From a candidate division WS2 bacterium ADurb.Bin280 (GTDB lineage: Bacteria > Patescibacteriota > UBA1384 > DTJR01), in NCBI GenBank assembly GCA_002071685.1, contig MWBO01000016.1, positions 1 through 50,412 on the forward strand: DNA of 50,412 nt, in the 5' to 3' direction. Shown here in pieces: positions 4,331 to 21,060 of this stretch (position 1 is its first letter; each line of letters opens with the position of its first letter). The notes under the pieces were generated by a model that saw only the letters and a list, made by a program, of their open reading frames with translations, did no database searches and was not told the DNA's origin. A program made the position numbers and the translations under genes.

Positions 4331-4486
4331 CAAGTGTCGGGTAGCAAACACAATCAAATAATACATAATAGAGTAAATGCATTGGCAGAAACGCCAGAAT
4401 AAGACGGAGGTTCAATGGAATAGTATGGTAAAATAAAGATGCTGGAAGTGTTTGAGAGTATTAAGTTTACTGATAAGGAGATAAAA

Positions 4487-5026
4487 ATGAAAACAAAATA
4501 CAAAATTGTTCTATGGCTTTGTCTTTTTTTAATTGTTGTTATCGCGGTCTGTTTGGTCTTGATAAATATTGAAAATAATAAAAAGAACGACGATTTATTA
4601 TCTGATGACATGCTTGAGGTGACTGAAGTTGTCGAGGATTCACTTGCAAGTGCAACTACCACAAGCGCTGTCCGCAACATCACCGAAGAAGAAGGGGCGC
4701 AAAAGCAATCGCAAATGGTTTTCGAGATATACTTTCCCGCGTCGTGGGGAAACATAGAAGTGGTGGAAGGGGATTTTGCAAATCAAGTTAAAACGGTTGG
4801 GTACAATATCAAAACCAAGGATAATTCTTATCAGGGAGGGAATGCTACGATTATTACAATTAGGCAATATGAAAAGAGCGCTCCTGACAAAACAGGAACG
4901 TTGATTGCCTCAAACGACAATTATGATTTTTATTATACAATTTGGGAGAGCGCTCCGAGCGATCTTGGGCAAATCACCGAAAAAGAATTAGCAAGCGTTC
5001 TTGAAACTTTCAAACTCCTTGATTAA
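4487..5026 (+). CDS. Single-anchor exported protein of unknown function
   Basis: 179 residues. The ATG at 4487 is chosen because AAGGAGAT sits 5 nt upstream; a longer frame to 4439 has no ribosome binding site. Residues 6-27 form a hydrophobic anchor (KIVLWLCLFLIVVIAVCLVL), followed by a polar, acidic linker and a compact C-terminal domain (about 85-179: MVFEIYFPASWGN, VGYNIKTKDN, TIITIRQYEKS, YDFYYTIWES, ELASVLETFKLL). The alternating strands and closing helix recall small PsbP-like or lipoprotein-type domains seen behind single anchors, but I cannot assign a family. Probably exported or periplasm-like facing. Confidence 0.75.
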   Translation: MKTKYKIVLWLCLFLIVVIAVCLVLINIENNKKNDDLLSDDMLEVTEVVEDSLASATTTSAVRNITEEEGAQKQSQMVFEIYFPASWGNIEVVEGDFANQVKTVGYNIKTKDNSYQGGNATIITIRQYEKSAPDKTGTLIASNDNYDFYYTIWESAPSDLGQITEKELASVLETFKLLD

Positions 5027-6535: not shown

Positions 6536-7510
6536 ATGAAGGAACAAAATACACTAGAAAAAGTTATTGGAGCTCCAGCTCAAGCGTTAGATCAAACCAT
6601 CGAGACCACCCAAAAAGTCAAAGAGGAGATTGTAGATAAAGGGCCAGTCAAAAAAGCCAGAGAATACTGGGAACTTCTAGGACCCGGACTGACCACTGGT
6701 GCATCAGATGACGATCCGTCGGGCATAGCGACATATTCCCAGGCGGGAGCGAAGTATGGTTTCTCTTTTTTGTGGACGGCAGTTCTAACTTTTCCGATGA
6801 TGGCGCTGGTGCAAGAGATGTGTGCCAGAATCGGTATGGTCACCGGTCGAGGGCTGGCTGGCAATATCAGAGTCTTTTTCCCACGTTACGTTCTTTATTT
6901 TTGCACTGCCTTGCTTTTTGGTGCAAACGTCCTAAATATCGGGGCCAATCTGGGAGCGATGGCAAAAGGAGTGCAACTGATTTTACCAACACTGCCATTT
7001 GCTTATTTGGTAGTATTCTTTGCCCTATCTAGCATCTTGTCGCAAATTTATGTTTCATATCAAAACTATGCTAAATATCTCAAATGGCTAGCATTGGTTT
7101 TGCTCTCGTATGTTTTTTCGACCCTGTTAGCTGATGGTATCAACTGGCGTGAAGTTAGTGCAAGCCTTCTTGATATAAAAATCTCTTTTGACAAAGATCA
7201 AATTTTGATGCTATGTGCTATTTTGGGAACAACAATTTCTCCATATTTATTTTTTTGGCAAACCTCGCAGGAAGTCGAGGAGGCGATTGAACAGGGAGGA
7301 TCCTCTATTCAAAAAAGGCGTCAGTCAATAGATGCCCAAGCGATCAAAAATATGAGGATTGATGTTTGGTCTGGAATGTTTTTGTCGAACTTGGTTATGT
7401 TTTTTATAATTGTCGCTTGCGCCGCAACATTAAACAAGGCGGGAATACCGCTAGAGCTCTTCGTCCGCTGGCAGGTGATTGGTCGTATTTTTTATTTGCA
7501 ATTGGAATAA
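6536..7510 (+). pseudogene. NRAMP-family divalent metal transporter, N-terminal part (frameshifted)
   Basis: This frame holds the cytosolic N-terminus and about the first seven transmembrane helices of an SLC11/NRAMP-family carrier. The first unwound helix reads ASDDDPSGIATYSQAGA rather than the DPGN of classical Mn/Fe transporters, and the helix-6 site reads TISPYLFFWQTSQ instead of MPHNxxLHS; such changes are known in NRAMP-related carriers including Mg2+ types, so the substrate is open. Family similarity stops near AATLNKAGI (about 7440); the frame then runs through about 20 unrelated residues to a stop. The missing helices continue in another frame at about 7450, which implies the loss of one nucleotide (or gain of two) between 7435 and 7455. 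AGAGGG lies just before the ATG. Confidence 0.85.
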
Positions 7511-14111: not shown

Positions 14112-14196
14112 AAATCTGTTATCTAGAATGTGAGGTTACTATTTTTTTATATTGCATCCTGTCAGGATCGAACCTTTAACATATACAAATAAATTT

Positions 14197-14248
14197 CGGC
14201 CCGTAGCTCAGCGGCAGAGCGGCGTTCTTATAAGGCGTTGGTCGCAGG
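14197..14248 (+). pseudogene. tRNA-Ile pseudo-copy interrupted in the T loop
   Basis: These 52 nt equal the first 52 nt of the intact tRNA-Ile at 14381, up to the 5' side of the T stem (GCAGG). A 90-nt GC-rich insert follows, then GAATCCTGTCAGGATCGA, a diverged version of the tRNA 3' half (the intact gene has GAATCCTGCCGGGCCGA). It cannot make a normal tRNA unless the insert is removed. Confidence 0.75.
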
Positions 14249-14300
14249 CTTGAGCGAGTGGAGCGCGAAAGAGGCGGACCCGCCTTGGGCGGGGAGCCGG

Positions 14301-14337
14301 GGTCGACCGCATCGCCAGCAGGCGATGACGGGTGACC
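14301..14337 (+). repeat. Covarying hairpin, copy A (tRNA-Ile locus)
   Basis: Nested stems GGTC/GACC, CCG/CGG and ATCGCC/GGCGAT close an AGCA loop. The same hairpin with compensating base changes is found at 20871-20907 beside another tRNA. Confidence 0.75.
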
Positions 14338-14380
14338 GAATCCTGTCAGGATCGAACCTTTAACATATACAAATAAATTT

Positions 14381-14455
14381 CGGCCCGTAGCTCAGCGGCA
14401 GAGCGGCGTTCTTATAAGGCGTTGGTCGCAGGTTCGAATCCTGCCGGGCCGACCA
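14381..14455 (+). tRNA. tRNA-Ile (anticodon UAU)
   Basis: 75 nt including encoded CCA. Acceptor CGGCCCG/CGGGCCG, D stem GCTC/GAGC, anticodon loop CTTATAA with anticodon TAT (14413-14415), variable TGGTC, T arm GCAGG-TTCGAAT-CCTGC, discriminator A. The anticodon stem has three G-U pairs (GCGTT/GGCGT). UAU reads the rare AUA codon; many bacteria use lysidine-modified CAU instead. Confidence 0.8.
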
Positions 14456-20711: not shown

Positions 20712-20780
20712 CGCGCGGTGGAGCAGTGGTTAGCTCGCAAGGCTCATAACCTTGAGGTCGGAATCCTCCCCGCGCTACCA
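20712..20780 (+). tRNA. Initiator-like tRNA-fMet (CAU) with shortened T arm
   Basis: Acceptor CGCGCGG pairs with CCGCGCT except C1-U72, the mismatch that marks bacterial initiators; D arm GAGC/GCTC; anticodon stem CAAGG/CCTTG with loop CTCATAA; encoded ACCA. The T arm is only GGAATCCTCC (20760-20769), 10 nt instead of 17: the 5' strand and most of the loop are missing. The gene may be inactive, an unusual tRNA or an assembly error. Confidence 0.65.
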
Positions 20781-20870
20781 GATTTTTCTGTTGCCGGTTG
20801 GCGACAACAGAAAAATGTTTGGGAGTCGGGAGAACTGATTCGAAAGCCGGAGGCCGACGAGCCGAGGCGG

Positions 20871-20907
20871 GGTCGACGGCTTCGCCAGCAGGCGAAGACC
20901 GGTGACC
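20871..20907 (+). repeat. Covarying hairpin, copy B (tRNA-fMet locus)
   Basis: GGTC/GACC, CGG/CCG and TTCGCC/GGCGAA stems around AGCA. Relative to copy A at 14301 the second and third stems differ by paired changes that keep pairing. It is followed, as there, by CGAATCC. Confidence 0.75.
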
Positions 20908-21060
20908 GAATCCCTGTCGGTAGGATGGTTTGCGCCTTAGCATAAAGCTATCGTGGACAATTCATTTGACAGGCCAAGCCTCGCTCCTTTTGCAACCAGT
21001 TTCGCTTGGCAGGCCAAACTTTGCAAACCGATGATGATCTATTGAAGAGTATTTGCATAA

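Follow-up and report, generated by a model that had tools for sequence, protein, structure and literature searches.

The two hairpins at positions 14301-14337 and 20871-20907 of a contig from the candidate division WS2 bacterium ADurb.Bin280 are arms of a larger structured unit, found in many Patescibacteria, that carries a 9-nt antisense guide to the end of its upstream gene in front of a conserved core and often a repeat of that gene end behind it. We propose, as about an even call, that these units are non-autonomous, gene-less, hairpin-forming mobile DNA elements, directed by base pairing to the 3' ends of conserved genes and leaving those genes intact.

The two hairpins and their loci

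The window, meaning the whole 50,412-nt stretch analysed, is one entire contig of G000, a 0.79-Mb genome that is 88% complete and whose nearest relatives are G001 and G002. As read in the sequence, the first hairpin is GGTCGACCGCATCGCCAGCAGGCGATGACGGGTGACC (14301-14337) and the second is GGTCGACGGCTTCGCCAGCAGGCGAAGACCGGTGACC (20871-20907). The four base differences between them amount to exactly two compensated pairs, at positions 8-30 (C-G to G-C) and 11-26 (A-T to T-A), and direct comparison of the two sequences revealed no uncompensated change. A first-pass annotation of this DNA had reported paired changes in the stems, which are real, although it counted three of them where there are only two. 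It had also placed both hairpins at tRNA loci and noted that both end in GACCGAATCC; this was seen at both sites, the first hairpin lying inside a tRNA-Ile copy and the second 3' of an initiator-tRNA-like gene. The resemblance of the pair is far from chance, given eight copies in the same genome, occurrence in 41 of 289 related genomes and very strong covariation. The features of the two loci, all on the + strand, are as follows:

14156-14251, +: upstream region and tRNA-Ile positions 1 to about 53 of a first, interrupted copy (98-nt direct repeat, 98% with 14340-14437; weak Rfam tRNA match at 14197-14252)
14249-14271, +: first hairpin borne by the element itself, H (CTT-GA-GCG ... CGC-GA-AAG; sequence and predicted fold)
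14273-14298, +: arm P2 of the first element (GGC-GGA-CCCGCC..GGCGGG-GA-GCC; alignment and predicted fold)
14301-14337, +: arm P3 of the first element, the reported hairpin, loop AGCA (sequence and alignment)
14337-14361, +: tag CGAATCCTGTCAGGATCGAACC.., a degenerate tRNA-Ile 3' half (compare CGAATCCTGCCGGGCCGACCA; sequence, direct repeat D2)
14381-14455, +: intact tRNA-Ile(UAU) (tRNA detection)
20712-20780, +: initiator-type tRNA-Met-like gene, T arm short by about 7 nt (GGTCG|GAATCC; Rfam tRNA, 39.6 bits; missed by ARAGORN)
20782-20816, +: terminator-like hairpin (P1) behind the tRNA (inverted repeat)
20835-20844, +: guide strand CTGATTCGAA of the second element, complementary to the T loop TTCGAATC (sequence)
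20846-20868, +: arm P2 of the second element (alignment and predicted fold)
20871-20907, +: arm P3 of the second element, the second reported hairpin (sequence and alignment)
20907-20929, +: tag CGAATCCCTGTCGGTAGGATGG, with a T-loop-like start and no match to the neighbouring tRNA (sequence)

At the first locus (14156-14455) the hairpin interrupts a tRNA-Ile copy at its T loop: the copy is split between T54T55 and C56, and is followed by the element, the degenerate 3' half and the intact tRNA-Ile. Hairpin H replaces the guide/target helix in this interrupted copy; it was found again (CTTTCGCG..CGCGAAAG) at locus L054, and a similar one at L055. The same arrangement, in which the element has its own first hairpin (class 2), also occurs at L055, L054, L203, L196 and others. 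At the second locus the element lies 3' of both the initiator-tRNA-like gene and the terminator hairpin of that gene. Since the tag does not match the adjoining tRNA with its short T arm, this second element is probably older or rearranged. The tRNA may be genuinely unusual, its short T arm may be a scar left by an element event, or the assembly may be at fault; a search of the 88%-complete assembly found no second initiator-type tRNA-Met-like gene.

Core architecture and covariation

The reported hairpin represents only arm P3 of a larger unit with a core of about 75 nt. Similarity searching brought up a third copy, more diverged, next to tRNA-Gly, and predicted folding of these first three copies gave a common fold made of an outer helix, arm P2 (GGC-GGA-stem-GA-GCC) and arm P3 (GGTC-GA-stem-AGCA-stem-GACC). 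The full unit consists of the guide helix, P2, P3 and then a copy of the 3' end of the gene, which we call the tag. Covariance models were built from the three copies (R1) and from 105 copies (R2). Searches with covariance models recovered eight copies of the core in its own genome, and the core was found in 41 of 289 related Patescibacteria genomes, with a maximum of 16 copies per genome (G001); Actinobacterial matches to the core pattern were taken as chance and excluded.

Among the 105 aligned copies, 90.2% of the cells at paired positions could pair, against 68.5% after shuffling and 30-46% when the partners were slid, and double changes were found at 27 of 27 pairs. The first-pass annotation had argued that the fold is under selection and had proposed covariation as the check; selection or maintenance is borne out by this covariation on more than 100 copies. 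Rfam, group I and II introns included, gave no match at the gathering threshold in the window or in L005, and around both window loci an Rfam search at E up to 5 returned only tRNA and clear chance matches.

Genomic placement and gene-end repeats

Placement was analysed on 177 copies that are non-redundant and fully flanked. A tRNA or tmRNA gene lies on the same strand no more than 130 nt upstream in 120 of them and on the opposite strand in one, and 16 further copies are located just upstream of a tRNA. In 78 of the 177, the 20 nt after the core repeat an upstream stretch, normally tRNA positions 57-76, at 17 or more positions. Many genera share a single core type, which occurs behind 19 tRNA isotypes, tmRNA and rplL. 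In the main class, the gene-end repeat begins between tRNA positions 55 and 56. The direct repeat has one fixed junction and a length that varies between 7 and about 51 nt, and in many copies the tag is missing or decayed. A hairpin separates the gene from the core and is, in several cases, probably the terminator of the gene itself. The repeat can extend beyond the discriminator in tRNA genes that do not encode CCA, which indicates that it was copied from DNA or from a precursor and not from mature tRNA.

Targets were not restricted to tRNAs. Five copies lie 0-15 nt behind rplL (L7/L12) and a sixth 51 nt behind it, and the Pfam L7/L12 domain supports the identity of the target in two examples. 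At L205, L211, L206, L177 and L204 (and L169) the element comes directly after the rplL stop codon, and the last codons of the gene are copied after the core. Elements were also observed behind tmRNA 3' ends (L097:1916, L059, L033 and L067), and L223 (Parcubacteria LiPW_30) holds dense multi-unit arrays behind tRNA-Lys and tRNA-Leu at 4368-5020 and 7068-7377. A few copies occupy sites without a tRNA, where the left flank repeats only the last 6-10 nt of the tag (..CCA). The first-pass annotation had suggested an insertion element that targets tRNA T arms. For the T arm this largely held, since the repeat begins at 55|56 and a 9-nt complement of positions 54-62 is present, but T arms are not the exclusive target: acceptor ends, tmRNA, rplL and the few non-tRNA sites are occupied as well.

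An antisense guide and a fixed junction

Directly 5' of the core lie 9 nt that read as the reverse complement of a stretch of equal length, X, in the 3' region of the upstream gene. In the T-loop class X is TTCGAATCC and the guide GGATTCGAA, which complements tRNA positions 54-62; the corresponding pairs are GTAAGGTTG and CAACCTTAC in the rplL class, and CGCACAAAC and GTTTGTGCG in the tRNA acceptor-end class. The repeat after the core always begins at the third base of X (x1x2|x3..x9), and the junction therefore lies at a fixed point of the match between guide and target, with 2 nt before it and 7 after.

Of 181 copies, 104 have a complementary run of at least 8 nt between guide and gene; with guides swapped, about 11 do. 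For targets other than the T loop, such runs were present in 39 of 60, compared with 4% for swapped and 0.9% for shuffled guides. Such a complement accompanies 75% of the element-bearing tRNAs and 11% of the tRNAs without this core, and most of these latter exceptions carry other, unrelated cores in the same architecture. The guide also tracks the gene at x1x2, outside the repeat, where TT in the gene goes with AA in the guide 88 times and TG with CA in three of three cases. Where gene and tag differ, 18 T-loop guides pair with the gene and one with the tag, as counted by us from the table for guides pairing at 6 or more of 7 positions with one or the other. It is to the gene, not to the tag, that the guide is matched.

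At L177 and L206 the C-terminus encoded by the rplL end in front of the core is almost identical to that encoded by the tag behind it; most of the differences between the two are synonymous, and the tag is in frame only if it is joined at x2|x3. This pattern fits an origin of one of the two ends from another allele. The idea that the guide arose by snap-back copying of the entire gene end was dropped, since the middle of the antisense stretch is non-complementary even in recent copies.

A census of all tRNAs was made on the complete genome G191. It has this core at six tRNAs and other cores, at nearly the same spacing, at tRNA-Ala (GGC, CGC), tRNA-Glu and tRNA-Cys. Unrelated cores in the same guide-core-tag architecture were seen at its tRNA-Ala, tRNA-Cys, tRNA-Glu and tRNA-Ser loci. 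Unrelated structured cores in this architecture also occur at L034, L037, L043, L164, L178, L182, L196, L202, L212, L215 and L234, and each of them could be a separate family.

Gain, loss and exchange of cores

The presence of the core is patchy between species of one genus. G198 has an element at its tRNA-Leu(GAG) site, which is empty in G191; tRNA-Gly(CCC) is followed by a truncated relic in G191 and by two units in G198, and tRNA-Ala(GGC) has different cores in the two genomes. Within one genome, cores at different tRNAs are 94-99% identical, and this identity stops sharply at the core borders, guide and tag being different. Units are also arranged in tandem arrays with differing linkers. 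Comparison of these loci shows gain, loss and exchange of cores, from which we infer movement. No island-sized version of the element was found in the complete genome G191, and an island-borne origin was discarded on this basis. A virus-borne origin was likewise rejected: two later core patterns matched no viral contig, and the one match of an earlier pattern, at L012, was a chance match at a place with no tRNA.

Pairing statistics resemble those of DNA

A fold selected as RNA should tolerate G-U pairs and not C-A pairs. In tRNA stems of the same loci, G-U accounts for 4.0% (acceptor) and 7.4% (T stem) of the pairs and C-A for 0.1%, while in element helices P2 and P3, one position apart, G-T and C-A each reach 0.9%, with similar values in a second set. 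This near symmetry points to DNA pairing. It is moderate and not conclusive evidence that P2 and P3 pair as DNA, in either strand or as a cruciform, or else undergo templated correction. One P3 pair position, unlike all other helix positions, shows strand-specific G-T in 27 of 103 copies and 39 of 88 copies (alignments A4, columns 105-176, and A5, columns 163-232) and practically never C-A; this RNA-like position counts against the DNA reading. The processing signal offered by the first-pass annotation was not supported, the core being patchy within a genus and strand-specific G-U wobble near absent. A processing signal or tRNA intron confined to the window loci was ruled out by the core lying behind other genes and in other genomes.

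Candidate mobilising enzymes

Reverse transcriptase (RVT_1, PF00078) is no commoner in genomes with the element (17 of 41) than overall (109 of 289), and two complete genomes (G191 and G277) lack it, as do the copy-rich G001, G198 and G000; retrotransposition was accordingly rejected. Y1_Tnp (PF01797) does not track the element either (20 of 41 against 136 of 289 overall) and is absent from the copy-rich G001, G198, G191 and G052, so that a Y1 transposase/RAYT was discarded as the mobiliser. Tyrosine recombinase (PF00589) was found in 275 of 289 genomes, with a single copy in G001, as a family-level match that does not distinguish the IntI subtype; being near universal, it is uninformative as a discriminating factor.

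Comparison with known systems

Integrative elements of tRNA genes produce a direct repeat from the T loop to the tRNA 3' end and keep the gene intact, and the 3' ends of protein genes serve them as well. The elements described here share the T-loop-to-3'-end repeat, the intact gene and the use of protein-gene ends, and differ in being about 75-150 bp long, in having no integrase and in carrying an antisense guide to the target. The guide sequence of group I introns (P1/P10) can span the 5' junction in its pairing and can also pair with the beginning of the 3' segment. A single guide likewise fits both here, but there is no group I core and no Rfam match, and the pairing statistics are DNA-like. 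Integration of the Casposon/Cas1 type gives a target-site duplication of fixed length, unlike the repeat of 7 to about 51 nt.

In IS608 (IS200/IS605), a guide at the foot of the hairpin pairs with the target, and changing the guide changes the target (PMC5934647); small non-autonomous palindromic relatives exist as well (PMC8266576). The likeness to IS200/IS605 and REP/TnpA_REP lies in a single-stranded DNA hairpin with a target-pairing guide at its 5' foot, which here is the guide 5' of P2. However, the IS200/IS605 guide has 4 nt and that of the element 9 nt, the element repeats the gene 3' end on its far side, its targets are the 3' ends of tRNA, tmRNA and rplL genes, and Y1_Tnp is not associated with it. 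An attC site has paired outer ends, an unpaired spacer, inner paired boxes and a terminal structure, and is recognised as a folded strand (PMC2727003). The elements resemble it in an outer TGG../..CCA pairing in many copies (read by eye), an internal mismatch, the guide/tag pairing and the arrays. Unlike attC, they end in ..CCA/TGG.. or in gene-specific sequence, without R' GTTRRRY or R'' RYYYAAC, their core sequence is conserved, they carry no cargo and the tag is the local gene end.

Searches of the open-access literature in PMC turned up no description of such hairpin cassettes, and the family in these tiny Patescibacteria is apparently undescribed. In the way it would work it resembles IS608 and attC, yet it belongs to neither, having no Y1 association and no R boxes.

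Proposed mechanism and alternatives

According to the mobile-element reading, to which we give as much credence as doubt, a single DNA strand of the element would fold as predicted, and a recombinase or nuclease supplied in trans would recognise the fold. By its complementarity the guide would pick a 9-nt target where a conserved gene ends and set the right junction at x2|x3; the core would be linked through its 3' end (..GTGAC) to x3, and what remains of the gene end would be duplicated or brought along, by which the host gene may survive the insertion. The distributions of RVT_1, Y1_Tnp and tyrosine recombinases, and the strand-specific G-T position in P3, count against this reading. A possible form of it, which we hold only tentatively, is a class of minimal DNA elements, targeted by a DNA guide and diverse in their unrelated cores, that on insertion would "write" a fresh 9-nt guide matching each new target. 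With no more than a near-universal host enzyme such as Xer, they could then settle behind nearly every conserved gene.

A structured RNA would account for the guide in another way. The gene transcript would read into the element, guide-gene and guide-tag pairings would alternate as in group I P1/P10, and the stretch from tRNA position 56 to the core end would be intron-like or switch-like, removed or tolerated, with the same product from both versions. The guide does span x2|x3 in its pairing with the gene, and its pairing with the tag starts at x3; the strand-specific G-U position would fit, and the L177 and L206 tags still encode the same rplL C-terminus, in frame only when joined at x2|x3. 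We nevertheless regard this explanation as unlikely, because P2 and P3 show almost no strand-biased G-U wobble, Rfam gave no match even at permissive thresholds, group I and II introns included, the core is patchy among close relatives and the tag is lost or decayed in many copies. More doubtful still are integron-like cassettes, in which folded attC-like hairpins (outer TGG../..CCA, unpaired spacer, inner guide/tag stem and the core as terminal structure) would be moved by a tyrosine recombinase with tRNA 3' ends as attI. Paired ends, an unpaired central spacer and a variable terminal structure do follow each other in attC order (PMC2727003), tandem arrays exist, and ectopic copies share with the left flank only the last 6-10 nt ending in CCA; against this, the ends have no GTTRRRY/RYYYAAC boxes, the core sequence is strongly conserved, unlike that of attC, no cargo gene is present and the tags are the local gene end instead of a cassette-borne site.

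Retro-integration, in which a reverse transcriptase would insert tRNA-tagged RNA by target priming with a variable target-site duplication, would be in keeping with direct repeats that vary in length (7 to about 51 nt) and share a fixed junction, and with a location at the 3' ends of genes that are highly transcribed. As an explanation it is very improbable: the RVT_1 distribution given above does not fit (missing from G191, G277, G001, G198 and G000), repeats running past the discriminator in hosts without encoded CCA do not derive from mature tRNA, and the DNA-like wobble statistics weaken it further. Least of all do we expect that nothing has moved, the units being tandem tRNA duplications whose second copy decayed to hairpins, or relics of tRNA-integrated islands. 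Pieces of tRNA do adjoin intact tRNAs, and the tRNA-Ile locus of the window is a tandem duplication, but the same core behind 19 tRNA isotypes, tmRNA and rplL in many genera refutes the simple form of this explanation, and the complete genome G191 has no island-sized version.

Patescibacteria are among the most abundant and least understood bacteria. If the mobile-element reading is true, a superfamily of mobile elements resides within their tRNA genes, choosing targets by 9-nt DNA-DNA pairing and protecting the host gene, and the constant placing of the junction in the guide match (2 nt | 7 nt) opens it to direct test. If the guide directs insertion, nature would here provide a programmable way to insert DNA at 3' ends while sparing the gene. 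The element family also accounts for stray pieces of tRNA and for tRNA copies that are interrupted, which annotation tools will encounter in these genomes.
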